From Muribaculaceae bacterium (GTDB lineage: Bacteria > Bacteroidota > Bacteroidia > Bacteroidales > Muribaculaceae), in the NCBI GenBank assembly GCA_022510425.1, contig JAFLTO010000015.1, positions 1 through 64,000 on the forward strand: DNA of 64,000 bases, read 5' to 3'. The notes under the pieces are model-generated. The model made no database searches, had not been told where the DNA came from, and saw only the letters and a list, made by a program, of their open reading frames with translations. Each line of letters begins with the position of its first letter. The first letter of the stretch is position 1. The position numbers and the translations under genes are program-made. Shown piece after piece: positions 30,938 through 56,440 of this stretch.

Positions 30938-30939
30938 GA

Positions 30940-33900: not shown

Positions 33901-34080
33901 CCGGTGCTTCTTGCTTCATTTACCACCGTGGCCGGTATGATACCTCTTGTGAGCGATCCGATGTATGGGCCCTTGGCTGTTACAGTCATCGGGGGGTTGA
34001 TAATTGGCACAATGGTTACGCTGCTTTTCCTCCCGGTGCTTTATTCTCTGTTTTTCAATGTTAAAGCTCAGAAAAAATGA
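30940..34080 (+). CDS. RND-family efflux pump (AcrB/HAE1 type)
   Basis: A 1046-aa inner-membrane proton antiporter with two sets of six spans and two large periplasmic loops. TM4 has the paired acidic residues in GMLVDNAVVIMDGI and TM10 the lysine in MMMKNAIVLVDEINAL, both needed for proton relay in the family. Length is normal. Sequence style (FFMQRQTLFWSLMVLIVAAG, short N-terminus) fits the HAE1/MdtB-like hydrophobe exporters, not the heavy-metal CusA group. Overlaps the TolC gene start by 4 bp. Confidence 0.95.
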   Translation: MEKLTKFFMQRQTLFWSLMVLIVAAGVLTYIRMPKLEDPAVSVKQASVVVLYPGAETQRVEKDVVTVLEQQLRALPDVKKISSTVKPGQALITVEFNYETPIDEVEQHFDLLRRKVADTEMLLPPGVMSPIVIDDMMDVYGIFYALSGKDYTIEELETFAKTLKHEIMTVKGVKRVNIGGASREVIDIAFSPEQIRQDGMLPMLIASALQSTTKAINAGKIDNGSDRLSINVTKGASTVEEISDIVINLPDGKKTRIGDIAKVSRHEAESSTGGFYLNGDPAIVILVAMENSAVVPDVGAEVDKIVNNTLSMLPVGLTIDKEFFQPDQVNEAVSSFIINLIESVLIVVFVLMIAMGWRSGLIIGLGLILTVLLSFPILSSLGTTLQRISLGAFIIAMGMLVDNAVVIMDGIMVDRKRGLPKSVYLYRIGKQTAMPLLGATIIAAATFLPIFLTSGTVGEFAGDLFLVVCVSLLVSWVLALIQVPVCADQWLNPNDIKGDIEGQPKLNRVQRMVKRLVEYLIRHKSIAITAAVLLLACAGGGVFLVKNVFFPDFNYDQFVLECYYPPESNPDAVRERMFQLSDSIMSDKDVRNVAISLGGAPGRYCLVRPVPEGGDDYAEFIVQCKDYHAVQRLAKEMTSKLREIAPEIYIRARKYNFSVSSSHLVEVEFAGPDAAELRRLSEKAANIMRNSPYVDPYTVQTNWNDPSRQLSVAYSAQSAARAGVNREDVGNALMAATDGYTVGVISDKDNLIPINIVIRDNGKKLSDLSNIPVWTMMNVNLSDKDIEGLIRGSLSQEDIRKKMFVTTTLANCVDSITTILDESLIYRYNGQRAIQVECDPDPYNPEATPDKLLRSVKSEIEKIKLPNGYTMRFVGESEVSDDAMGKVFQNLPVMVVILIIVLLLLFNNWRKLAVIILCFPFVLCGIVPALLLTDTPFTFLAILGLMGLVGMMMKNAIVLVDEINALTTQQRLDLFPAIVQATLSRVRPVLLASFTTVAGMIPLVSDPMYGPLAVTVIGGLIIGTMVTLLFLPVLYSLFFNVKAQKK

Positions 34081-35381
34081 AAATAAGAATTTTAACCCTG
34101 CTGATTGGATGTAATGCCTGCTTATCTGTAGCTGCCCTTGATTTATCGCTCAAGGAGTGTCGCGAGCTGGCTCTGCAAAACGACGAAGATATGCACATTG
34201 CACAAAACAGGGTAGCACAGGCTGATCTTGATAAGGGTATAGCCAAGACCGGCTATCTTCCAAAATTCGATATTAACGGAGGTGCTTTCTATCTTACCCC
34301 AAACCCTTCTATGGGGTCTACGATGGATATTCAGATGCGTGGAGTGTATATGGCTGGAATTAGTCTGATGCAACCCGTTTATACCGGAGGAAAGATAATA
34401 ACCGGTAACAAACTTGCCTCCATAGGAAGTGAAGTCTCACGATATCAGTTGGATGCGACAAGAATGGATATTATAGCGGATGCAGAAAAGAGTTACTGGA
34501 TGTATGTGGCGGTGCTGTCTAAGATTGATATGATAAATTCTTATATATTACAATTGGATTCGATATATTCTTATACTAAAACAGCATATGAATTAGGACT
34601 TACAACCAGGCTTAGCCTCGAGCGTGTTGAGTCACGTCGTTCGGAGTTGGACTACCGGCTTCGGCAGGCTCAATCGGGAGCCGATATTTGCCGGATGGCG
34701 CTATGTCGAATCATTGGAGTGGATGAATTCACACCTATTGTTCCTACTGAAAGTCTCGATAATATGAGCCATTCCGAAAATTCTTTTGCAGGAATAGACA
34801 ACCGGCCCGAATTGCTTATGTCACAGAAAAATATTGATGTGAAAAAGCTCGATGTGAAAATGGTTCTCTCAGATTTCTTACCTCTTGTGGGGTTGCAGCT
34901 TGGCTGGAATGCTTTCGGCAATATGAAGATGACAAGCTATACTCCCTTGCAGGATGGAACGATGTATCCTTTCTCTCAAACCATTGACTATCGTGGTTTT
35001 GTAGGTGCTGTATCTGTATCCATACCTGTTTTTCATTGGGGAGAAGGATATAGAAAAGTGAAAAAAGCCAAAATTGAAGTGGAGAATGCCACTTTATCTT
35101 TTGAACGTAACAGGAAGCTTATGGAACTTCAGGCACGTCAGGCATATAGCAATTATATTGACGGCTATGACCTGATAGTGACGGCTACAAAAGCCTTGGA
35201 TGAAGCTCAGAATAATCTCACCTCCATAACAGATCAATATAGAAGCGGCCTAATGACTCTCACGGATTTACTTGAGGCTCAAGCTCAATGGCAAACTTCA
35301 TATGCCAATTTGATAGAAGCCAAGACCCAATATAAAATAAACGAAGTGGATTACCTCCGAAACGTTGGATTACTTGAATAG
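34077..35381 (+). CDS. TolC-family outer-membrane efflux channel
   Basis: A 434-aa protein with a signal peptide (LLIGCNACLSVAA) and two OEP repeats of long helices, typical of TolC channels: LSLKECRELALQNDEDMHIAQN begins repeat 1, and the second repeat ends with RSGLMTLTDLLEAQAQWQTSYANLIEAKTQYKINE. With its neighbours it forms a full tripartite pump. The start codon lies inside the pump gene (ATGA overlap). Confidence 0.94.
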   Translation: MKIRILTLLIGCNACLSVAALDLSLKECRELALQNDEDMHIAQNRVAQADLDKGIAKTGYLPKFDINGGAFYLTPNPSMGSTMDIQMRGVYMAGISLMQPVYTGGKIITGNKLASIGSEVSRYQLDATRMDIIADAEKSYWMYVAVLSKIDMINSYILQLDSIYSYTKTAYELGLTTRLSLERVESRRSELDYRLRQAQSGADICRMALCRIIGVDEFTPIVPTESLDNMSHSENSFAGIDNRPELLMSQKNIDVKKLDVKMVLSDFLPLVGLQLGWNAFGNMKMTSYTPLQDGTMYPFSQTIDYRGFVGAVSVSIPVFHWGEGYRKVKKAKIEVENATLSFERNRKLMELQARQAYSNYIDGYDLIVTATKALDEAQNNLTSITDQYRSGLMTLTDLLEAQAQWQTSYANLIEAKTQYKINEVDYLRNVGLLE

Positions 35382-35543: not shown

Positions 35544-35616
35544 GGTGTCATAGCTCAGTTGGTAGAGCAAAGGACTGAAAATCCTTGTGTCCCCGGTTCG
35601 ATTCCTGGTGACACCA
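35544..35616 (+). tRNA. tRNA-Phe (GAA)
   Basis: 73 nt folding as a normal cloverleaf: acceptor GGTGTCA/TGACACC, D stem GCTC/GAGC, anticodon loop CTGAAAA giving GAA, T arm CCCGG/CCTGG with TTCGATT. The CCA end is not encoded (ACACCA then CA). A second, odd tRNA-Phe copy lies at 50950-51065. Confidence 0.97.
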
Positions 35617-35873
35617 CAGAAAACAAAACCCAAGTAATTGATTATCAATTACTTGGGTTAAATTTTTGTCTTCAACTCTTCAAATTTGAAGGCATTTTGA
35701 AGGCAACTTCAAAAATACTTCAAAAAGTTTCTGAAATCAAAACATGCCGTCACAGCTGGATTTAGCAACCATTTCCATTATTCATCCAAAGAGAGTTTCA
35801 AATAATCTTCGCTTATTTTCTCTTTTTTTCACAAGCTTTCTTTATCTATACTTGATCTATAACTGATTGACAT

Positions 35874-36446: not shown

Positions 36447-36686
36447 GGTAACAGCAAAGGAACCACCGGAATCAATTCTCCGTCTTCTTCAGTAGTTAAG
36501 ATCACCGGCATCAACAATGCTGTTTTGATTTCCGGAGGTGAAGGCAAACAATTCCAAATTTATTCAATCGAGGGTCGCCTGATAAAATCTTTCAGGGCAG
36601 AAAGCGATGCTGAAAAAGTGAGCCTTGTACCCGGATGGTATATCGTATTTACCGAAGGAATTTCAGAAAAAGTGATTGTTAAATAA
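36447..36686 (+). pseudogene. Remnant of a T9SS-sorted surface protein (C-terminal domain only)
   Basis: In one frame the DNA encodes ~79 residues ending at a TAA (36684-36686): ...FQIYSIEGRLIKSFRAE...VSLVPGWYIVFTEG..EKVIVK. This matches the C-terminal sorting domains of the next two genes (NISIYSIDGKLIKSL, YLAPGVYAVI, KVNVK). A stop codon lies directly before the fragment and there is no start codon, so the body of the gene has been deleted. It ends 15 bp before the next intact gene. Confidence 0.85.
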
Positions 36687-36700
36687 AAATTAATCCTGAC

Positions 36701-39700
36701 ATGAAACTATTTTCAACATATAAAAGAACAGCTGCATTTTTTGCTGCTATCCTGACTACAACAGTCCTGTCTATCCCGGCTTTCAGTGCCGTCGGAGATA
36801 CATTAAGCGACAGTTACTTTCAATATGAAGTAACTGATGAAGAAAATTTAACCTGTAAACTCACAGGTCTTCTTAATACTACAGTTACCGGCACCTTAAC
36901 AATTCCATCCTTAGTTTATGACAATTCAAATATCAAGCAATATAAAGTGACTTGTATTGCAAGCAGAGCTTTTGATGGAACCATTATGGGATCTGCCACA
37001 ATAAAAATCGGAGATAATGTGGAAATAATAGAAAGCTATGCATTCAACGGTGTTAAGGCTTTTACAGGTCTCCTAAAAATACCCAATTCTGTAAAAATTA
37101 TAGGAGAATACGCCTTTTATAGTTGTACAGGTTTTGAATCTATAGAATTAGGTGAAAATGTAGAATCTATAGGAAATTATGCTTTCTTTGAATGTTCCGG
37201 ACTTAAGGGTTCACTTATCATTCCTGACAAAGTTAAGACAATTGGGGAAAAAGCTTTCTATCAACTTAATTTTGATGGTAATCTTACTCTTGGGAAAAGT
37301 TTGGAGAACATAGGAGAATCTGCATTTGCCCAAACGAAATTTAAGGGAAATCTTATACTGCCATCAAATTTACAAACCATGGGTACAGATGCTTTCTTTA
37401 GTTGTAATGGTTTTACCGGTTCCTTGGTAATACCTGATGAAATAAAGACAATAGAGGAGGGTGTGTTTGCTAAGTGTTCGGGGTTTAATGGTACGCTTAC
37501 ACTTGGTGAAGGTTTAACACAAATAAAGGCAGGTGCTTTTTATTATTGCTGGTTTACCGGCGATTTGATAATCCCTAAAAACATAAAATCAATTGAAGGC
37601 GAAGCTTTTTACAATGGAAAATATAATAATCTTATTTTACAGAGTAATACAACCTTAGGCGGAGTTTCTACAGGAAGATTTAACAAAAATAAAGTTTTTG
37701 ATAGCATTGATTTTAAATCAATAACTTGTCTGAGTGAACTGCCTCCCTCTGCCGGGGGAGCTGAATTTTCTAATCATATTTACGAGTATGCAGATTTATA
37801 TGTGCCGAAAAACGCTTTTTCAAGATATAGCCAGCATAGTGAATGGAAAAAATTCAGTTTTTTTCACTTTATTGTGCCAGTGTCTTCAGTAACAGTAAAT
37901 TCATCAAAAAATAGTTACAAAGTAGGGGAAACCATAACTTTAACCACTACAGTATCTCCATCGGACGCAACAAAACCACTCGATACGTCTTGGACTTTTT
38001 CAAACAGCATTGTATATCCTAAAGAAAATAATGAAAGCTTTATTGCATGTAATAAAGGTACAGTTGAAATTACTGCTAAAGTAACTAATGAAGTTACCAT
38101 AGGAGGTGTGGAAGGAACAACGACAATAAATATTCAGCCAAGTTATATTGAAGCCGATAAAACTTTCTCAGCCATCAAAGCAGGTCAAACAGCAACTGTT
38201 AAGTTAAATGTGGACGAAAATCTCGATGACACTTTCTCTTATTCCGGTTTTGGATTCAAAATTACATTGCCTACAGGAGTAAAGGTGAAAAGTGTTACAA
38301 CTTCTGAATCTCTTTCTAATTTTACAACCCTATCATCTACAGATAAGGATGGTAACTATATAGTGAATTCTTATGCTTCTGATGCGGTACCCTCTTCAAT
38401 TAAGGAGGCATTCCTAACCCTCACTTTGGAAGCTGAAAAATCGGTTAAAGCCAATAACTTGGCTTCCCTTAAAATTTCAGAAGTGATATTTACTTCTCCG
38501 GAAGCAATGGATATTAATTTCGATGATTCGGAGGAATATACTTTCGAAATTATAAACACTCCTATTACAGATGAAGATATCACTGTAAATAGTTCTGATA
38601 GGGAAGACAACGACAATCTCCCCGACAATGATGAAACAAAACGTGATTTCAATGAGATTTATGTCAATGAGAAAATCACTTATACGGCAGAGGTAGCTGA
38701 AACAGTGACAATAAAGGAACTTAAATGGCAACTCATAGACGACACCGATATTGTTTCAATAAAAGATAATGGAGACAACTCTGTCGACGTAACCGGTCAA
38801 AAATTAGGCACTGCCAAATTGAAGGCGGTATCCGAGGCTTATCCTGAATTCAGTTATGAACTCACGGTTAATGTAATCCCGATGCCGGTAACTGTTCACA
38901 TAAAGGTTCTGGAAAACACCGATCTCAAGAATCTGAATGTGGATGATGAAGTTGAGCTGATATACACCCTTACGCCGGATAATGAATTGTTGACCGGCAA
39001 AATCAACCTCGCCTGGAGGGCAACTTCTGCTACAAATAGCATATCGGTTGAAAATGGAAAGATAACAGCCAAGGCCCTTGGCGATGCCAGTGTCATTCTC
39101 ACAGCTTCTTACGTAAATACATACGCAGCCGACAAATATAAAACCGTACCGAATGATCAGGTAGAAGTAAAAGTAGTACCGGTACCTGCAGACGAAGTTA
39201 CGGTTACTGTAGCTCCTTCTGTGACTGGTAAAGATGCTGAAGTTGTCGTGGGTGAAAGTTTAGAACTTTCCGTAGCTATTTCACCGGATGAAACTTACAC
39301 GGGTCCGGTTGATATCTCATGGAGCTCAGCCGATAATGAAGTGCTCTCCGTAAACGCCGGTGCTGACGGAAAAACTTGCACCGTAACTGCAAAAAAATAC
39401 ACCGAAAATAAGGTGAAAGTAACCGCTACAATCACTTATGATACTGACAAGGTTGTAACCGGTGAAATCGAGGTCACAATTCTTCCAAAGGCAGCAGAAT
39501 CAGTTAATATAACTGCAGAATTTTTAAAGAGTTGTACACATACCGATCATATAAAAGTAGGTGAAGAACTGCAGTTCATAGCCGAGGTACTTCCTGAAAT
39601 CACAACTTTCAAAGATGTGGAATGGAAAGTGGAAGACCCTGAATATGCTTCAATTACCCCTGATGGTATTTTGACAGCCATCAAGGCCGGGACAACCAAT

Positions 39701-40597
39701 GTGGTTGCAACTGTGAAGAATACTTCAGTAACTAAGAAATTTGCCCTCTTTATAACTGAAGGTATCCAAGGCGATGCCAATGACAATGGCAGCGTAAATA
39801 TCGCAGACGTAGTGGCTATCCGTAATGAGGTACTTAAAAACGAAGAATCGGAAAATGCCAACTTCTGCCATGCAAATGCTGATATCGACGGCGCCAACGG
39901 GATTGAAGTGTTAGATCAGGCAGCTGTACTCAACTATGTATTGACCGGTAGCTTTAACGCTACTTCTGAAAACACACGCGCCGCAAATGTAATCACAGGG
40001 TGCCTCACTGCTGATAATTTCGATTCTCAAAAGGGAAAGACCGACATCAGCGTTGCACTTGACAATCCTTCAGATTTCATCATACTCCAGGCCGATATCA
40101 TGATTCCTGCAGGTATGTGTGTGGAAGAAATTAAAACCGGCAAGCAAGCTGACGCCCACAATCTTTTCTACAACTATATCGAAGAGAACATTCTTAGGAT
40201 TGTGCTTGATTCACCTTACAATCAGAACTTCAGCAACAGCAATGGATCTTTGTTCTCTCTCTCGGTTTCGATGGATCAAAATTGCGGTGACCTGCAAATA
40301 AGCAATATTGTGGCTGCCGATAGAAATATCAACCGTCGTGAACTTACTTTCAGAGGTGGCCATGACGATGGTTCTACTTCAGTAAGTATGGAAACTGAAG
40401 ACGGATTTAAAGTCATGACAGTACAAGGTGGTATAACCATACTTAACGGTCAAGGTAAAAATATCTCTATTTATTCTATTGACGGAAAACTGATAAAATC
40501 GCTCAATCCGGTTAAAGACAGAGAAACTCTCTATCTTGCTCCCGGCGTTTATGCAGTGATAAAGGATAATCAGTCTGTCAAAGTAAACGTGAAATAA
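36701..40597 (+). CDS. Secreted BspA-like LRR / Ig / cohesin-like / dockerin-like protein with T9SS C-terminal domain
   Basis: A 1298-aa exported protein. Order: signal peptide (AFFAAILTTTVLSIPAFSA); BspA-type leucine-rich repeats, about 60-340, each with IP..VK.IGE.AF-like units; Ig-like segment (about 390-480); cohesin-like beta-sandwich (about 485-640, AGQTATVKLNVDENL.., FGFKITLPTGVKV); three or four BIG2-type Ig domains; a dockerin-like pair of calcium loops (about 1021-1085: GDANDNGSVNIADV and ADIDGANGIEVLD); another cohesin-like domain (about 1105-1220, VALDNPSDFIILQADIMIP); and a type-A T9SS C-terminal domain ending KVNVK. It is probably attached to the surface through T9SS. Role likely adhesion or scaffolding; ligands unknown. 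Confidence 0.85.
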   Translation: MKLFSTYKRTAAFFAAILTTTVLSIPAFSAVGDTLSDSYFQYEVTDEENLTCKLTGLLNTTVTGTLTIPSLVYDNSNIKQYKVTCIASRAFDGTIMGSATIKIGDNVEIIESYAFNGVKAFTGLLKIPNSVKIIGEYAFYSCTGFESIELGENVESIGNYAFFECSGLKGSLIIPDKVKTIGEKAFYQLNFDGNLTLGKSLENIGESAFAQTKFKGNLILPSNLQTMGTDAFFSCNGFTGSLVIPDEIKTIEEGVFAKCSGFNGTLTLGEGLTQIKAGAFYYCWFTGDLIIPKNIKSIEGEAFYNGKYNNLILQSNTTLGGVSTGRFNKNKVFDSIDFKSITCLSELPPSAGGAEFSNHIYEYADLYVPKNAFSRYSQHSEWKKFSFFHFIVPVSSVTVNSSKNSYKVGETITLTTTVSPSDATKPLDTSWTFSNSIVYPKENNESFIACNKGTVEITAKVTNEVTIGGVEGTTTINIQPSYIEADKTFSAIKAGQTATVKLNVDENLDDTFSYSGFGFKITLPTGVKVKSVTTSESLSNFTTLSSTDKDGNYIVNSYASDAVPSSIKEAFLTLTLEAEKSVKANNLASLKISEVIFTSPEAMDINFDDSEEYTFEIINTPITDEDITVNSSDREDNDNLPDNDETKRDFNEIYVNEKITYTAEVAETVTIKELKWQLIDDTDIVSIKDNGDNSVDVTGQKLGTAKLKAVSEAYPEFSYELTVNVIPMPVTVHIKVLENTDLKNLNVDDEVELIYTLTPDNELLTGKINLAWRATSATNSISVENGKITAKALGDASVILTASYVNTYAADKYKTVPNDQVEVKVVPVPADEVTVTVAPSVTGKDAEVVVGESLELSVAISPDETYTGPVDISWSSADNEVLSVNAGADGKTCTVTAKKYTENKVKVTATITYDTDKVVTGEIEVTILPKAAESVNITAEFLKSCTHTDHIKVGEELQFIAEVLPEITTFKDVEWKVEDPEYASITPDGILTAIKAGTTNVVATVKNTSVTKKFALFITEGIQGDANDNGSVNIADVVAIRNEVLKNEESENANFCHANADIDGANGIEVLDQAAVLNYVLTGSFNATSENTRAANVITGCLTADNFDSQKGKTDISVALDNPSDFIILQADIMIPAGMCVEEIKTGKQADAHNLFYNYIEENILRIVLDSPYNQNFSNSNGSLFSLSVSMDQNCGDLQISNIVAADRNINRRELTFRGGHDDGSTSVSMETEDGFKVMTVQGGITILNGQGKNISIYSIDGKLIKSLNPVKDRETLYLAPGVYAVIKDNQSVKVNVK

Positions 40598-40666
40598 AAT
40601 TAAGTCGTAAATTTTCAAAGAGGAAATAAAACGGTAAAAATAAAACTCATAAATATATTTGATTTT

Positions 40667-43459
40667 ATGAAAATCAATAGTCTGATAAGTAAATTTTCAC
40701 TGTTTGGGGCTCTCTTTCTCTCCAACACAGCCTTTATATACGCCCAAGACACGAATGTGCAGAAGCCTGAGTTCTCTGTTGATAATTTCTCAATCACAGC
40801 CGGGAGTTCTGTAAACAATATTGGGGTGAACATCAGTTTGCCACAGAATACACAATCTATCACTTATAGCGGTTTTCAGTTTGATATAACTCTCCCGGAA
40901 GGAATCACTTTGGACAATATATCGGCCAATTCCAATCTTTCAGGCATTACACTACGGAGTGCAAAACTAAACACCGGCAACACATGGAGAGTGGCAGCAT
41001 TGAATTACGAAGCCAATACCACGTATACCGTGACCCAAGAGGTTGTATATCTCAATCTGTCAGCCGATAAAACTGTTGCAGCAACCACCGATGCGAAAAT
41101 ATCCTTCACCGATGCATTGTTGGTTGCTCAGGATGCTACAGATATTGATTGCTCCAATTCCTCCTCTAATTTCACAATAGTGAACGTCCCGATCACAGGC
41201 ATAGAGATTGTTCCCGGCAATTCTTCAGCCGGCTCCTCCTCTCATGCCAACAATCAAATATACATTGACGAAGAAATTGAATATACCGTAAAAATTACTC
41301 CTTCCAATGCTACAATAACTGATCTGGAATGGACACTCACCCAGACTGATGATTTCGTTTCTTCTTCAGATATCACCAATGGTAAGAAACTTACAGGCTT
41401 GAAATTCGGCGAAGCTACCTTGACAGCAAAGTCATCTATATATAATGTCACAGGGGAATTTAAGGTGAATGTAGTGCCAATGCCTATTGAAAAGGTAACT
41501 GTTACTGCCGGGAATGTATCATTGGAACCGGAGGGCACCACAACTCTTACGGCTGTAGTGACACCAGCCGAGAAATACACCGGACCGGTCTCTATAACAT
41601 GGTCGGCAGATAATTCAGGTCATGTTTCCGTGAATCCGACCACAGGTGTTGTGACCGCTGTATCTGTCGGCAAGGCTGTGGTGACCGTTACTGCAACTTA
41701 CGATAACGGTAAAACCGCTACCGGAACTATTGAAATCACGGTTATTCCTATTTCTTCCGATAAGGTTACGGTAAAGGTTTCATCCTCTGATGGCGATGCC
41801 TCAAGCGACGGCTCTATTTCTATTGTACCAGGTAAATCTAAACAGCTGAACAGCTATATCTCACACGATACCAAATATACCGGGGAAATTACCACAACTT
41901 GGACTTCCTCAAATTCGAGTGTATTATCTGTTGATAATGCCGGATTAATAACTGCTAACAAATATGACAACCAAACCGTGACTGTGACTTCTACCGTGAA
42001 GTATGGAAATTATACTGTAACCGGCAGTATCAAAGTTAATATCACGCAGGTACCCATTGAATCTGTGACCGCCTCCGCTCAAAAGACAGAAATCAATATA
42101 GGGGAAAGCATCAATCTTTCAGCCGCAGCTTCTCCTGCCACTACTCTTACAGGTAATGTTAATTACACCTGGAAGACCGCAAATACCGACTTAATAACTC
42201 TCGGCTCCGATGGCAAAGTGACCGGTAAAGCTCCCGGAACTGCAACTATTACCGTTACAGCAGCCAACAATGTAAGCTCGAAGGAGGGTATAATACAAAT
42301 AAAAGTGCTTGCCACACCGGCAGAGTCTATTGAAATACAAACGCTATCTCTGGAAAGATATGCTAACAAAGATATTATCAAACTCGGTGAAACTTTAAAC
42401 TTCAAGGCAACCATATATCCGGAAAATGCCACTTACAAAGATGTGGAATGGTCGGTTGACAATCCTTCCATAGCCACCCTAACCTCAACTACCGGCGAAT
42501 ACGACATGATTTTGACTGCTAAAAGCTTAGGAAATGTAGTGGTGACTGCAAAAGTGAAAGCTACTCCAACAATATTAGCTACCTATAATATCTCTGTGGT
42601 AAAAGAGGTTCTCGGTGACGCCAACGACAATGGGATTGTCAATATCTCTGACCCACTGGCTGTAGGTAACGAAATCGTGGCCCTGAAGAATAATACTGTA
42701 TCAAAAAATGCAAAATTCAGTTTCATAAATGCTGACGTGAATATAGATAAAATCATTGATGTAACCGACCAGGCTCTTATCACGGATATGCTCTACGGTC
42801 TCTTTGATCCTTATCAACCCACCACGCGGACCCTCAACAACGATTTAATCTATTTTTCCGACTCTCTTGTTGCAGATGATTTCAAGGTGAATGAAGGAAA
42901 TGTGGAAATCGGGTTTAAACTCGACAACCCTTCCGATTACATCATCCTACAAGCTACAATTCATCTTCCGGAAAATATGAGGTTGTCTGACATTGCGAAA
43001 GGCCCGCAGGCTGCAAATCATGAATTTATTTACAGTATTAATGAAACCAACGACCTTACAATAGTTATCTATGCAATGCCGAACACATCTTTTTCCAACC
43101 TCTCAGGAAATCTGTTCTCTATTGTGGCAGAGGCATCCGATAACACCGGCGATATCTTTGCGGAAGATATAATCGTTGCCGACAATTCCCGCAGAAAGTA
43201 TGTATTGGATTTCAGAGGCGGCCACAATCAAGACACCACAGGCATCTCATCGGTTGAGACAGAATCTTTCTCTGTGATCAGTTCTCACGGCAGTCTGACA
43301 ATTATTAATGCTGCCGATAGGTTAGTAAACATATATTCTGTAAACGGTCAGCTGGTGAAATCTTTAGTGCCGGCGTCACGAAATGAGTCCGTGTATCTTT
43401 CTCCGGGCATTTACATCGTTAATTCAGGCGAGTCAACTTTCAAAGTAATTGTAAAATAA
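40667..43459 (+). CDS. Secreted cohesin-like / Ig / dockerin-like protein with T9SS C-terminal domain
   Basis: A 930-aa exported protein, sister of the preceding one but without LRRs. Signal peptide (FSLFGALFLSNTAFIYAQ); N-terminal cohesin-like domain (about 26-170, SGFQFDITLPEGITL); about five Ig-like BIG2 domains (about 175-640); dockerin-like pair (about 648-712: GDANDNGIVNISD and ADVNIDKIIDVTD, with the 1-3-5-9-12 acidic pattern of F-hand calcium loops); second cohesin-like domain (VEIGFKLDNPSDYIILQATIHLP); C-terminal sorting domain (NIYSVNGQLVKSL..VYLSPGIYIV..KVIVK). Its promoter is not evident, so it may be co-transcribed with the first protein; a strong terminator follows. Confidence 0.85.
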   Translation: MKINSLISKFSLFGALFLSNTAFIYAQDTNVQKPEFSVDNFSITAGSSVNNIGVNISLPQNTQSITYSGFQFDITLPEGITLDNISANSNLSGITLRSAKLNTGNTWRVAALNYEANTTYTVTQEVVYLNLSADKTVAATTDAKISFTDALLVAQDATDIDCSNSSSNFTIVNVPITGIEIVPGNSSAGSSSHANNQIYIDEEIEYTVKITPSNATITDLEWTLTQTDDFVSSSDITNGKKLTGLKFGEATLTAKSSIYNVTGEFKVNVVPMPIEKVTVTAGNVSLEPEGTTTLTAVVTPAEKYTGPVSITWSADNSGHVSVNPTTGVVTAVSVGKAVVTVTATYDNGKTATGTIEITVIPISSDKVTVKVSSSDGDASSDGSISIVPGKSKQLNSYISHDTKYTGEITTTWTSSNSSVLSVDNAGLITANKYDNQTVTVTSTVKYGNYTVTGSIKVNITQVPIESVTASAQKTEINIGESINLSAAASPATTLTGNVNYTWKTANTDLITLGSDGKVTGKAPGTATITVTAANNVSSKEGIIQIKVLATPAESIEIQTLSLERYANKDIIKLGETLNFKATIYPENATYKDVEWSVDNPSIATLTSTTGEYDMILTAKSLGNVVVTAKVKATPTILATYNISVVKEVLGDANDNGIVNISDPLAVGNEIVALKNNTVSKNAKFSFINADVNIDKIIDVTDQALITDMLYGLFDPYQPTTRTLNNDLIYFSDSLVADDFKVNEGNVEIGFKLDNPSDYIILQATIHLPENMRLSDIAKGPQAANHEFIYSINETNDLTIVIYAMPNTSFSNLSGNLFSIVAEASDNTGDIFAEDIIVADNSRRKYVLDFRGGHNQDTTGISSVETESFSVISSHGSLTIINAADRLVNIYSVNGQLVKSLVPASRNESVYLSPGIYIVNSGESTFKVIVK

Positions 43460-43470
43460 AAATTTATAAA

Positions 43471-43513
43471 AAGGGTATGCCATGGCTTTAATGACATATC
43501 CTTGTCTTTTTTT
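43471..43513 (+). terminator. Terminator/attenuator inside the surface-protein locus
   Basis: AAGGGTATG pairs with CATATCCTT (one G-U), then TTTTTTT. It separates the 930-aa and 1519-aa protein genes, only 12 bp before the latter's ATG; partial readthrough would lower expression of the last two genes. Confidence 0.75.
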
Positions 43514-43524
43514 ATAACCAAAAC

Positions 43525-46500
43525 ATGAAACGCTTTTTCCTTAATTTGAAACTGTTGATGGTAATGCTGTTGTTACCGGCAGTTTCCTTAGCGAATGCTC
43601 AAAGTGAGGGTAATTTATCCGTTTCTTTTTCTTCCGGGAACATCTCTATTGATTCCGGGGAGGATCAGGAAATAGGAATAGTGGTTTCCAATCCTTCAGC
43701 CATTAAATTTATAGGTTTTCAGGGTGACCTGGTAATTCCGGTGGGTCTTGAACTCAAATCTCTTTCCTTGGGGAGTGCCCTTCAAGAATCAGGTTTTAGT
43801 CTCCGTCCCATAGTCACCAATCCGGTGACCGGCAACGTGAGATTGACCCTTACTGATTTCAGCCTTGTCGGTTCGGAAATCACTTCGGGAGAAATAATAA
43901 AACTGACCTTGGTAACTACCGCCGGAGTAAATCCCGCGAATGTCACTCTTTCTCTCCGTGACATCCTTTTCACCGCTGAGGATGGAAGTGATATGAACTT
44001 AACGGGCTCACCTGCCACGGACGTGGATATAAAAGTGCCAGCTTCGGGAATTTCTTTGGATGCAAAAGACCTTACTATAGAAATCAGGGAATCAGTGTAC
44101 CTTACAGCAACAGTCACTCCCTCCAATTCTTCTGACACAGATATTATATGGACTTCAGATGCTCCCGGGATTGCATCCGTAGACAACGGTAAAGTGACCG
44201 GTGTGTCTGTCGGTACGGCCAATATAACCGCAACTTGTGGCAATGTGTTTGCCACATGCAAAGTTACGGTAAAATATCCGATGCCTACTTCTATAGCTGT
44301 CTCTTCCGAATCGCTTGCATTAAAAGAGGGTGAGACATCAAATCTGACATATACTCTTACTCCTTCAGATGCCGTCACAACCGTGACATGGACTTCTGCT
44401 GACTCTTCCGTTGCAACAGTCGATAATACCGGCAAGGTGACAGCCATCAAGGAGGGTCAGACTTCGATAACCGTGACCACGGCCGAAGGTCAGACAGCTA
44501 CCTGTACCGTGAAGGTTTCAAAGAATATAGTCATAGTTTCGAACATAACTGTTACTCCTTCTACAGCTCAGGTTAAGGTCGGTGAGACAGCTACTCTGAC
44601 TGCCACAGTCACTCCGGACAACGCAACTGACAAGACTGTGACATGGTCTACTTCCGACGCTTCTGTTGCAACTGTGGTTAATGGTGTGGTTACAGGGGTA
44701 AAGGTCGGGTCTGTGACTATTACAGCAACAGCCTCTAACGGCAAGAGTGCTTCGGCCACCGTGACCGTTACTCCTCCCTCTCCCACCGCGATTTCGGTTT
44801 CTCCGACGACACTCGCTCTCAAGGAGGGTGAGGACGGTCAGCTGACAGCCACACTTACTCCGGCTGATGCTGCCACCACCCTCACATGGACAAGCAGTGA
44901 TCCTTCAATCGCTACTGTGGACAACACCGGCAAGGTTACTGCCCTCAAGGAGGGTCAGGCAGAAATAACGGTTTCAACTGCCGAAGGTCAGACAGCAACT
45001 TGTTCGGTTACTGTTTCAAAGGATATAATCGTAGTTTCGAACATAACTGTTACTCCTTCTACAGCCCAGGTTCAGGTCGGAAAGACTATCACACTCACTG
45101 CAACCGTTTCGCCCGAGAACGCTACAGACAAGTCTGTAACATGGTCAATTTCTGACGCATCAGTGGCAACCGTCAACAACGGAGTAGTGACAGGGGTCAA
45201 GGCCGGCGTGGTTACAATAACTGCAACCGCCTCAAACGGCAAGAGTGCTTCGGCCACCGTGACCATTACTCCTCCCTCTCCTACCGCGATTTCGGTTTCC
45301 CCCACAACCCTCGCTCTCAAGGAGGGTGAGGACGGTCAGCTGACAGCCACACTTACTCCTTCAGATGCTTCCACCACCCTAACCTGGACAAGCAGTGGTC
45401 CTTCAATCGCTACTGTGGACAACACCGGCAAGGTTACTGCCCTCAAGGAGGGTCAGGCAGAAATAACGGTTTCAACTGCCGAAGGACAGACAGCAACTTG
45501 TTCGGTTACTGTTTCAAAGGATATAATCGTTGTTTCGAACATAACTGTTACTCCTTCTACAACTCAGGTGAAGGTCGGTGAAACCGTAACCCTCACTGCT
45601 ACCGTAACTCCGGACAACGCAACTGACAAGACTGTAACATGGTCAACTTCTGACGCATCAGTGGCAACCGTCAACAACGGAGTAGTGACAGGGGTCAAGG
45701 CCGGCGTGGTTACAATAACAGCAACCGCCTCAAACGGCAAGAGTGCTTCGGCAACCGTGACCGTTACTCCTCCCTCTCCCACCGCGATTTCGGTTTCTCC
45801 GACGACACTTGCTCTCAAGGAAGGTGAGACAGGTCAGCTGACAGCCACACTGACTCCGGCTGATGCTGCCACCACACTTACCTGGACAAGCAGCAATCCT
45901 GCAATTGCAACAGTCGATAACATCGGTAAGGTAATAGCCCTCAAGGAGGGTGAAACCTTAATTACCATTGAAACAGACAATGGTTTTTCAGCTACCGTTA
46001 CAGTCAAGGTAAGCAATAATATAGTGGATACTACAGATATAATCCTCAGTGCGGAAGACATATATCTTCTTGCAAAAACCTCCTATAGCCTCATAGCCCA
46101 GATAATACCGGATAATGCTACCAACAGACAAGTGACATGGAGAAGCAACCATGAGGAAATCGCCGAAGTTAATGCCGATGGTGTAGTGACCGGAATTAAA
46201 GAAGGAAAAGCCATAATAACTGCAATATGCGGCACTGCTTCAGCTAATTGCCAGGTAACGGTTTTCAGTCCAATAGAAATAACTGTCGACCCGGCAGAGG
46301 ACACTACCCAAGGAAACGAGGATGATTCTCCTGCTGATAATACAGAAAACGGAGGTGCAATTATCGGCAATGATGTTTACGTAAGGATCGGTCAGACTGC
46401 CTCGATAAACCTTACATTGCCCGATAATCTTTCAACCGTACCCCGGTTAAAATGGTCGCTTGAAGCCGGAGGCGAAAAGCTTGTAGATTTAAATGTCAAT

Positions 46501-48084
46501 GAAAATACTTTGGGTGCTTCTATCACCGGTAAACAACAAGGTGAAACTGCATATAACGTTTCATTGTGGGACAACGATGATGTTATAGTCAATGGCAAGA
46601 TAACTGTCATTGCAGAGACTCCCATGACATCTCTGACGGTAAATCCCTCCGCCATTGATTTTATGCTCGGAGATCAACCCATACAGCTTGAAACACAATT
46701 TACCCCTGAGAATGCTTCAAACACCTCTATAGTATGGATAAGCAGTAACCCGGATGTGGCGACCGTATCACCTGAAGGTATGGTGACACCGATTGCCGAA
46801 GGCGAATGTCTCATTACTGCCACTGCCAATGATGGAAGCGGGTTGAGCGCAACCTGTCAGGTGACTGTAACTTCTATTCCTGAAATCACAATCGAGGTTT
46901 CACATTCTCCGGACTTCATCACGGTAAATTCAGGCGACAACGTGACTTTATGGGTGAATGCAGCCGGAGGAAATCCCGAAGGATGGAGCTTCCTATGGAC
47001 TTCAGAGGGTCAGGTAATAGCTAATGAAAATTCTATTTCCTTTATTGCCGTGAATGACTATGATACTGCACTTCAGACTATCTATACAGTAAACATAACC
47101 AATGAATTCAATGGCCTGATAGTTTACTCAGAAAACTTCAACTTTACAGTAGAAGTATTGCCCGTCATTATCCTCCCTGATGAAGAAGACCTCGATATTT
47201 CAGGAATCAATGTATCGGATGATTCTTCATTGATCAAAATCAGAGAAGGAAATAATCTCACTTTGAGCGTCAAGGAACCGACAGGTGGTTTTGTTGACAA
47301 TTGGGATTACCTTTGGAGGGACAATAATCAGACAATAGGAACGGGAAGGACAGTAGAGACCACGGCCACTATGCCGGCAGGTAGTAGCAAAGAGATTTTT
47401 GAAAACCTCTATTCTGTAACCCTCTCTAATTATAGTCCGGAAGGTGAATTATGGGCAGAAAAAACAATTTATCTTAAACCTGTAAACGTTTACCGTCGTC
47501 CTCAGACTCCGGCTCAATTGCTTCGTAAAGGCAATGGCAGTTCCTGCACATTTATTACCATGATGGATCTCAACGACAGTCAGATAAGTGAAAACGGATA
47601 TAATTTCGTGTATGGATATATTGATCCTGAAGGTGAAAACCATGTCTTGACATCCACACCTAACCGATATTGCCATATCACATCATCAATCTACCATAAT
47701 AGTGCCAACAAATTCTGGGTATATGCCACATGGACTTACGAAGATGGAAGTGTGGTAAGCAGCGGACTTCGATATCTGAACGGTGAAGCAGATGAAAAAT
47801 TCGATGCTTCCGATTTTAGCCTGCAAACCAAGGGACTCGACGCAACTAATACGGATAACTGGATAAGGAATTATAATGGATCGATTCTTATAAATGTCGA
47901 AAGTAATGACGATGTAACAGTCACCGTACATACCTTCTCCGGCAGATGTGTGTATTCGCAAAGTTTTGAAGGAAGTGGCGTGATAAGCAAAATCCTTAAT
48001 AAGGAGAATCTGGTTCCGGATTTCTATATCGTGACTGTGATTTCCGGTAAAAACAAGGTGTCGAAAAAAGTTGTAATACGTTAA
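43525..48084 (+). CDS. Giant Ig-repeat (BIG2) surface protein with cohesin-like head and T9SS C-terminal domain
   Basis: A 1519-aa exported protein. Signal peptide (LLMVMLLLPAVSLANAQ); cohesin-like domain (about 28-175, FIGFQGDLVIPVGLELKSL); roughly ten tandem BIG2 domains (about 178-1130), each with a S..LALKEG..LTATLTP..A...WTSS..S.ATVD..GKVTALKEG pattern; an acidic linker (EDTTQGNEDDSPADNTENGG, about 930); PKD/Ig-like C-terminal domains (about 1120-1400); and a sorting domain (VHTFSGRCVYSQ...FYIVTVISGKNKVSKKVVIR). Unlike the two upstream proteins it has no dockerin-like segment. The middle carries three near-identical 498-bp repeats. The start follows a terminator hairpin. Probably an extended adhesin or scaffold stalk. 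Confidence 0.87.
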   Translation: MKRFFLNLKLLMVMLLLPAVSLANAQSEGNLSVSFSSGNISIDSGEDQEIGIVVSNPSAIKFIGFQGDLVIPVGLELKSLSLGSALQESGFSLRPIVTNPVTGNVRLTLTDFSLVGSEITSGEIIKLTLVTTAGVNPANVTLSLRDILFTAEDGSDMNLTGSPATDVDIKVPASGISLDAKDLTIEIRESVYLTATVTPSNSSDTDIIWTSDAPGIASVDNGKVTGVSVGTANITATCGNVFATCKVTVKYPMPTSIAVSSESLALKEGETSNLTYTLTPSDAVTTVTWTSADSSVATVDNTGKVTAIKEGQTSITVTTAEGQTATCTVKVSKNIVIVSNITVTPSTAQVKVGETATLTATVTPDNATDKTVTWSTSDASVATVVNGVVTGVKVGSVTITATASNGKSASATVTVTPPSPTAISVSPTTLALKEGEDGQLTATLTPADAATTLTWTSSDPSIATVDNTGKVTALKEGQAEITVSTAEGQTATCSVTVSKDIIVVSNITVTPSTAQVQVGKTITLTATVSPENATDKSVTWSISDASVATVNNGVVTGVKAGVVTITATASNGKSASATVTITPPSPTAISVSPTTLALKEGEDGQLTATLTPSDASTTLTWTSSGPSIATVDNTGKVTALKEGQAEITVSTAEGQTATCSVTVSKDIIVVSNITVTPSTTQVKVGETVTLTATVTPDNATDKTVTWSTSDASVATVNNGVVTGVKAGVVTITATASNGKSASATVTVTPPSPTAISVSPTTLALKEGETGQLTATLTPADAATTLTWTSSNPAIATVDNIGKVIALKEGETLITIETDNGFSATVTVKVSNNIVDTTDIILSAEDIYLLAKTSYSLIAQIIPDNATNRQVTWRSNHEEIAEVNADGVVTGIKEGKAIITAICGTASANCQVTVFSPIEITVDPAEDTTQGNEDDSPADNTENGGAIIGNDVYVRIGQTASINLTLPDNLSTVPRLKWSLEAGGEKLVDLNVNENTLGASITGKQQGETAYNVSLWDNDDVIVNGKITVIAETPMTSLTVNPSAIDFMLGDQPIQLETQFTPENASNTSIVWISSNPDVATVSPEGMVTPIAEGECLITATANDGSGLSATCQVTVTSIPEITIEVSHSPDFITVNSGDNVTLWVNAAGGNPEGWSFLWTSEGQVIANENSISFIAVNDYDTALQTIYTVNITNEFNGLIVYSENFNFTVEVLPVIILPDEEDLDISGINVSDDSSLIKIREGNNLTLSVKEPTGGFVDNWDYLWRDNNQTIGTGRTVETTATMPAGSSKEIFENLYSVTLSNYSPEGELWAEKTIYLKPVNVYRRPQTPAQLLRKGNGSSCTFITMMDLNDSQISENGYNFVYGYIDPEGENHVLTSTPNRYCHITSSIYHNSANKFWVYATWTYEDGSVVSSGLRYLNGEADEKFDASDFSLQTKGLDATNTDNWIRNYNGSILINVESNDDVTVTVHTFSGRCVYSQSFEGSGVISKILNKENLVPDFYIVTVISGKNKVSKKVVIR
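44536..46029 (+). repeat. Three tandem 498-bp coding repeats
   Basis: Near-identical units begin at 44536, 45034 and 45532 (GTTTCGAACATAACTGTTAC at each start), each encoding two BIG2 domains (166 residues). The last unit diverges after about 400 bp. Such high DNA identity suggests recent duplication or gene conversion, and copy number is likely to vary between strains. Confidence 0.9.
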
Positions 48085-48097
48085 ACTGAAGATCCAT

Positions 48098-49057
48098 ATG
48101 AAAAGTTTAATCAAATATACATTAGTGGCACTATCGGCAACGGCAGTAGCCACTCCCCTTTCAGCTCAGACTGAGGAGGAAGAAGAAATCATAATCTATG
48201 AGATTAAAGAAACTTCCGGTTCAGACAAGACCGAGGGATCTATCTTTTCAATAAAACTTAGTGCCAATATCGGTTTGGGCAATACTCTCCAAGCCAAATA
48301 TTCTCTTAACTCGATGACTCAGAAGTCAAATTCCGGAGATTATTCAGTGGAATTCGGCTGGAAGTTCTGGGAAAAGAAAAACAACAGTCTCGAATTGTTT
48401 GCAGGTCTTGGGTATAGCCCGGTGTCAACAAAACTTAACATTGGCGACATCAGCTATAATTACAATGCGCCTGCTTCGGCTGATATGGACGGAGACACTT
48501 ACATCCGGTATTACGAGCTGAAAGATTTGGAACAAAAGATTTCCTTGAGCCGGCTTACCATACCTCTTTATCTAAGATACACCTTTAAATGCAACGATCT
48601 GATCGGTATTTACGGGGATTTAGGTTTCAGACTGGGATTTCCGGTAAATTCTTCAATCTCTTCCATAAAAGGGAGTTCCTATAGCTATGGTATTTATCCG
48701 CAATATGAGGACCTGAAGATTGATGAAAGTTATCTTAATGATTTCGGCCAGACAAACCTTGAAGACAGCTATAAGTCAAAACCTGACCATAATTCCTTCT
48801 CCGCTTCTTTCCTTGTGGGAGCCGGAGTGGAATTCAATATCATAAGGCAACTTTCTTTAGGGGTAGGAGTGAGATATGATCTGGGATTTGCCAACTTATA
48901 TAAAAACAAAGATATCTCCGGCAAATTCACTTCCGAAACAGCTCCTGTGACCTATACAGTTAAGGATGGACAGACCATCAAACCCTTAAGTGACTGGTTA
49001 AAATCTTCCAAGTTGTCACAAATAGCAATCAATATAGCTTTGACCTATAGATTTTAA
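48098..49057 (+). CDS. Outer-membrane beta-barrel protein
   Basis: A 319-aa protein with a signal peptide (YTLVALSATAVATPLSAQ), an acidic stretch (TEEEEEIIIYEI), then alternating amphipathic strands (FSIKLSANIGLG, NSLELFAGLGYSPV, LTIPLYLRYTFK, FLVGAGVEFNI, LSLGVGVRYDLGFA) and a final strand ending in F (IAINIALTYRF), as expected for BAM-inserted barrels. It lies 13 bp after the giant Ig-repeat gene and is probably co-transcribed, which recalls the order of sprB and its barrel partner sprF, though I see no PorP/SprF sequence signature. Followed by a terminator. Confidence 0.82.
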   Translation: MKSLIKYTLVALSATAVATPLSAQTEEEEEIIIYEIKETSGSDKTEGSIFSIKLSANIGLGNTLQAKYSLNSMTQKSNSGDYSVEFGWKFWEKKNNSLELFAGLGYSPVSTKLNIGDISYNYNAPASADMDGDTYIRYYELKDLEQKISLSRLTIPLYLRYTFKCNDLIGIYGDLGFRLGFPVNSSISSIKGSSYSYGIYPQYEDLKIDESYLNDFGQTNLEDSYKSKPDHNSFSASFLVGAGVEFNIIRQLSLGVGVRYDLGFANLYKNKDISGKFTSETAPVTYTVKDGQTIKPLSDWLKSSKLSQIAINIALTYRF

Positions 49058-49080
49058 TTAAGGTATTGATTTCTCATGGA

Positions 49081-49112
49081 GAGGGAGCCTCTTGGCTTCC
49101 TTTCTTTATTTT
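49081..49112 (+). terminator. Intrinsic terminator of the surface-protein locus
   Basis: GGGAGCC-TCTT-GGCTTCC hairpin (one G-U) followed by TTTCTTTATTTT, 24 bp after the barrel gene. Confidence 0.8.
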
Positions 49113-50124: not shown

Positions 50125-50427
50125 ATGAAACTGATAGAACTGAATATAGAGAAAATCTATGAACTTTGCCGTAAATATAAGGTAAAGACACTTTCCGTGT
50201 TTGGTTCTATCCTGACCGACAGGTTCAATGACGAGAGCGATGTGGATTTCTCTGCAACTTTCTATCCGGAAGAAGATCCTCTTGTTTCTGGAGATAATTT
50301 TATAAATCTTTATATGGAATTAGAAAAATTGATGGGCAGGAAAATTGATTTAGTTTCAGAAGAAGCAATTCGGAACAAATATTTTAAAGAAGAACTTGAA
50401 GAAACCAAACAATTAATATATGGATAG
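50125..50427 (+). CDS. mntA: MntA-family nucleotidyltransferase antitoxin
   Basis: A 100-aa minimal nucleotidyltransferase with the signature FGS-(x)n-D-x-D: SVFGSILTDRFNDESDVDF (about 24-42). In known MntA/HepT pairs the MntA enzyme adds AMP to the HepT toxin and silences it. The gene overlaps hepT by 8 bp. The first ~42 residues are almost identical to the second MntA at 61214, but the rest (YPEEDPLVSGDNF...) is unrelated, implying a chimeric or recombined origin. Confidence 0.88.
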   Translation: MKLIELNIEKIYELCRKYKVKTLSVFGSILTDRFNDESDVDFSATFYPEEDPLVSGDNFINLYMELEKLMGRKIDLVSEEAIRNKYFKEELEETKQLIYG

Positions 50428-50761
50428 GAAACTCAAGAAATATTTAGAGGATATAAGACTGGCCATTGAAGACATCGAATCTTTTTTGGCTCAAAGGCCA
50501 AGAATGTACTCAGTATTTCTTGAAGATTCTATGTTCAGAAGAGCTATAGAAAGAGAAATTGGAATTATAGGAGAGGCAATGAACCAAATATTAAAACTTG
50601 ACCCAAATATTTCAATCACTGATGCAAGAAAAATAGTCGGTACAAGAAATTATGTAATTCATGCCTATGATACTCTTCGCCCAGATATGATTTGGGATAT
50701 TGTTATTAATGATATACCGATACTTAAGGAAGAGGTAAATGCATTATTATCTGAAAACTAA
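50420..50761 (+). CDS. hepT: HepT-family RNase toxin
   Basis: A 113-aa HEPN-type RNase. The catalytic RxxxxH is seen as RNYVIH (about residues 81-86), preceded by the conserved EREIGIIGEAMNQI helix and followed by AYDTLRPDMIWDIV. Full length and apparently active, paired with its MntA antitoxin. Known members cleave tRNA or mRNA; the neighbouring odd tRNA-Phe, 190 bp downstream, is noted separately. Confidence 0.9.
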   Translation: MDRKLKKYLEDIRLAIEDIESFLAQRPRMYSVFLEDSMFRRAIEREIGIIGEAMNQILKLDPNISITDARKIVGTRNYVIHAYDTLRPDMIWDIVINDIPILKEEVNALLSEN

Positions 50762-51166: not shown

Positions 51167-51382
51167 ATGGAAAACAAGGAAGTTCTCGAGTTTGTGACAT
51201 ACTGTATAAGTAAGTTGGGTCAGTTCCTAAACATGTCCCAACGAGATGTTTATATACGATTAAAAAAATCAGGTATCCTTGACGGGTATATCATTCACTG
51301 TTACGATATACTCCACACCTTTGGTTCACGTTATCTGATGGAAGACATAACTGAATATATGAGGGAGAAAGGTGTTCTATGA
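51167..51382 (+). CDS. DUF3791 small protein (probable antitoxin)
   Basis: 71 aa from ATG 51167 (the ORF track starts at a TTG). The pattern EFVTYCISKLGQFLNMSQRD and YDILHTFGSRYLMEDITEYM fits DUF3791, short helical proteins commonly upstream of DUF3990. Its stop overlaps the DUF3990 start (ATGA). Likely antitoxin by context. Confidence 0.75.
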   Translation: MENKEVLEFVTYCISKLGQFLNMSQRDVYIRLKKSGILDGYIIHCYDILHTFGSRYLMEDITEYMREKGVL

Positions 51383-51822
51383 TACTTTACCACACGTCAT
51401 ACACCACGATAGAAAAACCAGACATTTCACACTCACGGGATTTTCTTGATTTCGGTAAAGGTTTTTACCTTACCCATTTACGGGAACAGGGAGAAAGATA
51501 TGGTGTCAGGTTTACAAGACGTGGGAAAGATAGTTGGTTGAACATCTATGATTTCGATTATAGTGACACAGACTGGAAAGTATTGAGATTTGAAACTTAC
51601 GACAAGGAATGGTTGGACTTTGTGTCAAAATGTAGGGTTGGATTGGACTGTTCTGACTATGACATGGTTGTGGGAGGTATTGCGGATGACAAGGTCATCA
51701 GGACACTAGACAGATATTTCAACGGAGAAATTAGTGAGGATGAAACACTGGGACTGTTGAATATGAAAGACCCAATATCCAGTATTGTATCAGGTCACAG
51801 GAAATGTTGGACAGTTGTCTGA
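51379..51822 (+). CDS. DUF3990 protein, ADP-ribosyltransferase-like toxin
   Basis: 147 aa. The start LYHTSYTTI and the block DFGKGFYLT carry the His and Tyr positions expected of an ADP-ribosyltransferase fold, which DUF3990 is grouped with; DYDMVVGGIADDKV is also typical of the family. Such proteins probably modify a protein or nucleic acid with ADP-ribose and act as toxins. It is translationally coupled to DUF3791. A NADAR-like gene, a possible remover of ADP-ribose, lies broken 1.5 kb upstream. Confidence 0.75.
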   Translation: MILYHTSYTTIEKPDISHSRDFLDFGKGFYLTHLREQGERYGVRFTRRGKDSWLNIYDFDYSDTDWKVLRFETYDKEWLDFVSKCRVGLDCSDYDMVVGGIADDKVIRTLDRYFNGEISEDETLGLLNMKDPISSIVSGHRKCWTVV

Positions 51823-53412: not shown

Positions 53413-54684
53413 TTATTTTATTAAATCATTGATTATATATTGTCGACTTCGATTATTTTCATCCTTGATTTCAAGATTTAAGATGTAAAAAGAACCTACT
53501 TCCAAAGTGAAATTATGTTTCCTTGAAGATGATAAGGTTATTAGATTTGGTATAATTTCATCATTAATTTTAAGTCCTACCTGATTTTTTACTCCAGGTA
53601 TTATTGCTATTTCTTTACGAGTTGGAGTTGTTAAAAATTTCCCTAATATTGGATAGAAAGATTTATTACCATTATTATCTTGTAAAATTATTTCTATATC
53701 ATATCCTATTATATCAAGGGGCAAAAAATCTTTTAAATCTCCGGTCATTACCTTAATCCGCAGGATTAGACCCAGAATCATGAATTTAAGGTCTCTCTCG
53801 TAACTTTGTGGAATTATATTTTCTTCTAAGTATTCATAAACTCCATCCCCGATTTCCAACTTAAGTTCTAGATTTTCGTAAACAACTCTATATCTACCTT
53901 CACCGAAAAAACCTTGGTCATAGGCTAATTTTCCTGTGGCAAATAATGCAGCCTCCTTATAAATTCTAACTCTATTTAAAATACCGGAAGCTTGAAGGGA
54001 ATTTTTGAAAGACTTAACATTGGGTCGTGAAATTATAATAGTGTCTGTTTCCCTTAGCGTTCGTAAATTAGAAGCAAGAAAAGATTCTCCATAATTCTTG
54101 CATCCATGGAGGTAATCCTGTTGAATATCCAATGATTGAACATAATGGTAAATATCAGCAACGGATTGATTTCTACATTTTTGCAAATCGATAGTTAAAA
54201 TCTGTCCGGTACCAGCTATACACACTGTCAGGATATCTCCTTTAAGATAAGCTATTGAAAAATCAGCATCCGGATCGCAAGTGTCCTCTTTCTTAATCTC
54301 CTCCTTAGAGTTTTGAGTTGGGATTGGCGGTGGTACAACTTTTTCTTCATTAGTTGTGGGTATGACTATTTTTTCTATTTTATTAACCTGATCTTCCGTA
54401 AGATTGAGCGATGATGCAAGTCTATTCAACAAGCGTCGGGTAGAAGGACTAATATCAGGGTCATCTGACAGACAAGCCCTATATTCTTCCAAGTATTCCT
54501 TTTCAGGCTCGCTTAAAGGATTATTTACTGCGGATTCTATTTTAGCTATTTGCTCTTGTGACAGGCCAAGGCTTTTAGCCAGTCTGTCTAACAGCCTTCT
54601 CTCGCTTGTACTTACTTGCCCATCATTAAGACAAGCCTCATATTCTTGTTGGTATTCCAACTCTTCCCTCGTAAAGGTATCCAT
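53413..54684 (-). CDS. TerB-like repeat / degenerate Hsp70-like protein
   Basis: A 423-aa cytoplasmic protein. Residues ~8-105 hold two ~48-residue helical repeats (EYQQEYEACLNDGQVSTSER.., LGLSQEQIAKIE; EYLEEYRACLSDDPDISPS..) resembling half of a TerB/DjlA-type domain. After a proline linker (VVPPPIPTQ) the rest looks like a worn Hsp70: ASGILNRVRIYKEAALFATG recalls the AGL..R...EPTAAA-like segment, and DFLPLDIIGYDIEI..ILGKFLTTPTRKE..IIPGVKNQVGLKI follows the Hsp70 domain junction (PLSLGIE..TTIPT..DNQ.V.I). The N-terminal ATP-binding motifs are not evident. Last gene of a five-gene operon, 12 bp after the zinc-ribbon gene. The Hsp70 link is my inference. Confidence 0.75.
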   Translation of the reverse strand: MDTFTREELEYQQEYEACLNDGQVSTSERRLLDRLAKSLGLSQEQIAKIESAVNNPLSEPEKEYLEEYRACLSDDPDISPSTRRLLNRLASSLNLTEDQVNKIEKIVIPTTNEEKVVPPPIPTQNSKEEIKKEDTCDPDADFSIAYLKGDILTVCIAGTGQILTIDLQKCRNQSVADIYHYVQSLDIQQDYLHGCKNYGESFLASNLRTLRETDTIIISRPNVKSFKNSLQASGILNRVRIYKEAALFATGKLAYDQGFFGEGRYRVVYENLELKLEIGDGVYEYLEENIIPQSYERDLKFMILGLILRIKVMTGDLKDFLPLDIIGYDIEIILQDNNGNKSFYPILGKFLTTPTRKEIAIIPGVKNQVGLKINDEIIPNLITLSSSRKHNFTLEVGSFYILNLEIKDENNRSRQYIINDLIK

Positions 54685-54696
54685 ATCGGAAGTATA

Positions 54697-56208: not shown

Positions 56209-56210
56209 TT

Positions 56211-56432: not shown

Positions 56433-56440
56433 AATATTAT

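Follow-up and report, generated by a model that had tools for sequence, protein, structure and literature searches.

Organization of the CdA-OmpD locus

The window analyzed in this study is a stretch of 64,000 nucleotides from an uncultured Muribaculaceae bacterium of the gut, and it contains four co-oriented genes, CdA, CdB, CdC, and OmpD, together with the following features.

36486-36680, + strand: headless remnant of a DUF6383-type C-terminal sorting domain, a 79-aa open frame with a PF19910 match
36701-40597, + strand: CdA, 1298 aa
39752-39958, + strand: CdA dockerin, with two F-hand loops of which loop 2 is degenerate at ligand position 5
40667-43459, + strand: CdB, 930 aa
42596-42811, + strand: CdB dockerin, both loops canonical, halves dissimilar
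43525-48084, + strand: CdC, 1519 aa
48098-49057, + strand: OmpD, outer-membrane beta-barrel protein (OMP_b-brl_2), 319 aa, last gene of the unit
49078-49105, + strand: strong intrinsic-terminator-like hairpin that closes the four-gene unit

The coordinate differences between consecutive genes are 70, 66, and 14 bp, and these short gaps, together with the terminator after OmpD, indicate that the four genes form one transcription unit. A scan for sigma-70 promoters was uninformative (34 found versus 31.8 expected).

CdA has a signal-peptide-like start, an LRR_5 (BspA) region, Ig-like domains, a cohesin (about residues 491 to 612), Big_2, a dockerin (residues 1018 to 1086), a second cohesin (about residues 1100 to 1222), and a DUF6383 tail. 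The N-terminal LRR_5/BspA region was identified with Pfam and is absent from the account given by an earlier, sequence-only reading of this DNA. In CdB, a cohesin head (about residues 35 to 171) is followed by four Big_2 domains, a dockerin (residues 644 to 715), a second cohesin (about residues 732 to 856), and a DUF6383/T9SS tail. CdC consists of a cohesin head (residues 34 to 166), ten Big_2 Ig-like domains, and a T9SS type A sorting domain. Across the three proteins (36701-48084), there are five domains of the cohesin family and two dockerins of the F-hand type. The sequence-only reading had described two proteins with cohesin-like domains and a paired F-hand module, which are CdA and CdB, and a third with a cohesin-like head and about ten Ig domains, which is CdC; the outer-membrane barrel gene that it placed after the three was confirmed by Pfam as OmpD. 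Among the examined relatives, only L053 and L058 have an OmpD homologue after the corresponding gene pair, and the protein may be an anchoring aid or a passenger.

The sorting-domain remnant upstream of CdA matches PF19910 with an E-value of 1.6e-7 and shares 34 to 36% identity with the tails of CdA and CdB in tblastn. It is a decayed sister of these tails and the fourth DUF6383-type domain of the locus. The start previously proposed for the complex, 36447, lies at this remnant and outside CdA. Its position just upstream of CdA points to the past loss of a sister gene or to recombination at this site.

On the upstream side, the locus is preceded by an RND-type efflux operon (adaptor, pump, and outer-membrane channel; 29885-35381) and a tRNA-Phe gene (35544-35617). 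Downstream are a nucleotidyltransferase and HepT-like pair of the MntA/HepT toxin-antitoxin type (50125-50761), a DUF3990 protein (51379-51822), and three minus-strand proteins (53413-58504) that contain short repeated helical motifs and have only weak TerB/DUF533-like matches.

Identity of the cohesin and dockerin modules

In iterative profile searches that started from the window copies, the cohesin-like domains of the N side and those of the C side converged on a single family. Profiles were also built with all window rows removed and then run on the window proteins. The cohesin profile obtained in this way matches all five domains (E = 7.5e-14, 1.9e-18, 1.2e-20, and 4.3e-20, and 1.5e-9 for CdC), and the dockerin profile matches both dockerins (2.2e-14 and 4e-8), which excludes a chance resemblance. 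The cohesins of the window are divergent, since the Pfam Cohesin profile (PF00963) has no match in CdA, CdB, or CdC; 4 of 33 members of the cohesin family match it (best E = 1.3e-5), and the window members are not among them. The N-side cohesin of CdA lacks the near-invariant Q of its family. The best match of the cohesin profile to PDB sequences is cohesin 5 of Ruminococcus flavefaciens ScaB (5n5p; E = 1.3e-4), with further cohesins next. A phmmer search of the PDB with whole CdB returned Ig-like and surface proteins only and no cohesin, and the same search with whole CdA returned LRR proteins and weak dockerin matches.

Structure prediction, which had been proposed as a check, gave the cohesin fold for both the head and the C-terminus of CdB. 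The AF2 model of the CdB head (pLDDT 94.9) takes the nine-stranded jelly-roll cohesin fold, and ranks 1 to 31 of its PDB fold search are all cohesins, with TM values to the query of about 0.6 to 0.77; the best matches are non-cellulosomal modules of Clostridium perfringens. In the model of the CdB C-terminus (pLDDT 83), a two-helix dockerin, a cohesin fold, and a beta tail are separated by disordered linkers, and the best single-domain match of this cohesin fold is the Archaeoglobus fulgidus cohesin 2xdh. A chance Ig-fold resemblance was rejected, as integrin and pilin matches ranked below about thirty cohesins in the PDB fold search. Profile matches and predicted folds both support the homology of the window domains to true cohesins and dockerins.

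Pfam Dockerin_1 scores above the cut-off in CdA only (E = 0.12 for CdB), and the family dockerin profile matches solved dockerins in the PDB at 1e-10 to 1e-14, with cellulosomal ones down to 5e-14. Two calcium-binding F-hand loops, as in type I dockerins, are present in each window dockerin; both are canonical in CdB, while the second loop of CdA is without the position-5 ligand (DIDGANGIEVLD). Two-fold symmetry is typical of enzyme-borne dockerins and is not obligatory for all dockerins. The halves of the window dockerins are only 19% (CdB) and 29% (CdA) identical, whereas those of the C-terminal dockerins of g18, a genus of the same family, share a mean identity of 60%. This asymmetry makes a single binding mode the more likely one here, judging from the sequences, and a dual-binding mode is unsupported for the window dockerins.

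Genome census and gene order in related gut bacteria

A whole-genome profile search of the 2.93-Mb assembly (98% complete) counted exactly five domains of the cohesin family and two dockerins, and each of them lies in CdA, CdB, or CdC. Further dockerin-bearing genes, for which a search had been suggested, were not found anywhere else in the genome, either with the family-specific profile at E <= 0.1 or with the Pfam profile, and no dockerin was detected on an enzyme. These results bear on a cellulosome-like arrangement in which the cohesins would bring dockerin-bearing hydrolases to the surface. Such a scaffold is plausible in outline for g18, where enzymes end in dockerins, but for the present genome it was rejected because no dockerin was found outside the locus, and we consider it most improbable. 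Pfam assigns no catalytic or carbohydrate-binding domain to any of the locus proteins, and each carries one or two cohesins without a CBM, which is not the composition of a scaffoldin. Since no enzyme of the genome carries a cohesin or a dockerin, the locus does not encode a cellulosome. The earlier proposal was that the three proteins may join each other or enzymes; mutual pairing is favored by operon linkage and co-occurrence, whereas the part concerning enzymes is not supported by the census. With no dockerin found outside the locus, either only the locus proteins can be joined or the partners are too divergent for the profiles used.

In a six-frame search of the genome, TIGR04183 (T9SS type A) scores above the cut-off in CdB and CdC but not in CdA, and a DUF6383 tail is found in CdA and CdB. 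Type-A T9SS tails, which had been assigned to all three proteins, are thus retained for CdB and CdC and replaced by the DUF6383 tail in CdA. DUF6383 tails occur in this genome at this locus only, and at least 10 type-A-like sorting domains are present genome-wide. SprA, the component of the T9SS machinery that was sought, is present at full length (2645 bits). SprA and the C-terminal sorting domains are consistent with type IX export.

The gene arrangement is conserved in related gut bacteria, as judged from sequence comparison. A search of genome contigs with a single CdB fragment gave no match, and an alignment search with four rows recovered ten named loci, from Muribaculaceae-type gut MAGs. 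Among 397 sampled genomes of the family, 169 (about 43%) encode the cohesin, 165 the dockerin, and 162 both (Fisher 3e-98); among 295 genomes sampled across the order Bacteroidales, the counts are 26, 36, and 23, the last against about 3 expected (5e-22). Part of this co-occurrence is trivial, as many proteins carry both modules; gene order provides a separate test. A cohesin gene lies directly downstream on the same strand in 34 of 42 dockerin genes (loci outside g18 with room to look), a count that is not an unbiased rate since the loci were chosen as good matches and some are close relatives. The ends of the two genes often overlap or nearly touch, and there are only a few cohesin genes per genome. 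The upstream proteins of the pairs contain LRR_5 (19 of 25) and Big_2 (22 of 25), and the downstream proteins contain mainly cohesins and Big_2. Such a surface scaffold had been called rarely described in gut Bacteroidales, which holds for its description but not for its occurrence, given the frequency of the cohesin family in the sampled family genomes.

A tree of 103 cohesin domains requires 14 label changes, compared with a mean of 44.7 for shuffled labels; it was built on few columns with unsettled bootstraps, and only its broad groups are used here. Cohesins located in cis after a dockerin form a group apart from two acceptor clades, one with the first cohesins of the downstream gene (100/99) and one with its second cohesins (100/98), and the classes hold their positions across genera. 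This conserved position specificity would agree with distinct binding roles. The head cohesins of CdA, CdB, and CdC group with those of genome G065 (95/93) outside both large acceptor clades, and the window therefore carries a divergent version of the arrangement.

Larger sets of these modules are found elsewhere in the order. In g18 (genome G222, L111-L130), 25 dockerin proteins are encoded in 394 kb of one genome, most of which carry the module at the very C-terminal end. Among them are LRR proteins, a C10 peptidase, an alpha-amylase, a CBM26 protein, CotH-type proteins, a GHL10 hydrolase, and endonuclease I; a first look gave up to about 230 dockerin candidates per genome, most of them unscored. 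In another Bacteroidales family (G443:C85; L131:1-11856), three dockerin genes are followed by a scaffoldin-like ORF of at least 1716 aa, which reaches the contig end and contains ten cohesins. A 361-aa protein at L049:11529-12614, adjoining a dockerin-cohesin gene, has two cohesins and a C-terminal dockerin, which is the layout of an adaptor scaffoldin.

The arrangement can also be read as purely structural, with the cohesin-fold domains as Ig-like stalk modules and the dockerins as calcium-stiffened hinges in cis that mediate no binding between proteins; the dockerin would perhaps dock on the adjacent cohesin of its own chain. In nearly all proteins with this dyad, the cohesin begins within 60 residues after the dockerin, the cis cohesin forms its own orthologous class, and the two window dockerins are asymmetric, one of them with a degenerate loop, all of which would suit a spacer. 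However, distinct cohesin-only genes come after the dockerin genes at most loci, the g18 dockerins terminate enzymes and LRR proteins that have no cohesin in the chain, the G443 gene with at least 10 cohesins stands after three dockerin genes, and the linker between dockerin and cohesin is disordered in the AF2 model. We regard the structural reading as unlikely. Partners from outside the cell are less likely still: the cohesins might capture dockerin proteins released by other bacteria of the gut, or the locus might drive self-aggregation between cells. With five cohesins and two dockerins, some acceptors are left free, and related genera produce many dockerin proteins, but cohesin-dockerin pairs are species-specific as a rule.

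Proposed surface assembly and relation to known systems

We favor, with a probability of roughly 0.6, the reading that the operon encodes a closed cohesin-dockerin set, of a non-cellulosomal kind, for calcium-dependent assembly at the cell surface. CdA, CdB, and CdC would be exported by Sec and then by T9SS and anchored at the surface via their C-terminal tails, as the tails and SprA suggest. Once loaded with calcium, the dockerins of CdA and CdB would bind cohesins of the neighboring proteins, most likely the N-terminal acceptors of CdC and CdB; this pairing is deduced from homology, operon order, and co-occurrence. CdC would act as an extended Ig-like stalk topped by a cohesin and thereby display CdA, with the BspA-type leucine-rich head of CdA as the likely adhesive tip; judging from their families, the Big_2 stalks are expected to form an adhesive structure together with the LRR head. 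The cohesin right after each dockerin, which belongs to a separate orthologous class, probably has another role, either stabilizing its neighbor or serving as a second acceptor that extends the chain. The set is probably a small enzyme-free adhesion scaffold.

The modules and the pairing logic are already known. Clostridial and ruminococcal cellulosomes and the R. bromii amylosome are built from the two module families seen here, as judged from profiles and folds, and likewise place dockerins and cohesins on different surface proteins. Unlike them, the locus has no enzyme, CBM, SLH, or sortase element, bears T9SS tails instead, and is limited to 5 cohesins and 2 dockerins in one operon. The closest solved folds, the cohesin modules of C. 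perfringens GH84C/NagJ and GH33 (2jh2 and 2vo8), are also non-cellulosomal. Those modules are located on secreted glycosidases and have FIVAR-dockerin partners, whereas the window cohesins are on BspA/Big_2 adhesin-like proteins. The A. fulgidus cohesin matched by fold similarly comes from a non-cellulosomal host, but it is archaeal and has another architecture. CdA resembles the BspA-type LRR and Big_2 adhesins of Bacteroidales in its LRR_5 region, Big_2, and T9SS-type tail; the locus differs from them in the added cohesin and dockerin modules and in the cohesin-bearing partner gene.

Cohesin-dockerin complexes are regarded as a Firmicutes invention for the digestion of fibre. Like CdC, the TMEM132/coherin proteins of animals and choanoflagellates have a single cohesin and, after it, BIG domains in tandem, and a role in adhesion has been proposed for them; they differ in being eukaryotic membrane proteins, with no detectable dockerin in vertebrates (PMC6030884). 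Dockerins and cohesins of Bacteroidetes have already been counted in metagenomes (PMC6071333), and a 2026 study that reported 78 Bacteroidetes gut genomes with both modules termed this surprising and left it uninvestigated, since no cellulosome had been described outside Firmicutes (PMC12997984). We found no description of an enzyme-free, T9SS-tailed, operon-encoded cohesin-dockerin set in the mainly open-access literature that was searched. The chances appear evenly balanced that a Gram-negative equivalent of the clostridial cohesin-dockerin system, delivered by the T9SS, is widespread in Bacteroidales. It would extend from minimal adhesin scaffolds like the present one, through genera in which dozens of proteins, some of them enzymes, are tagged with dockerins, to scaffoldin-like genes that encode at least ten cohesins.

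The locus offers a small, testable case of the co-presence of both modules in Bacteroidetes, with seven modules in three genes and none found elsewhere in the genome, and the conserved linkage predicts which locus proteins pair. It could yield new orthogonal calcium-dependent coupling pairs, and it would show how bacteria with a T9SS build multi-protein structures at their surface.
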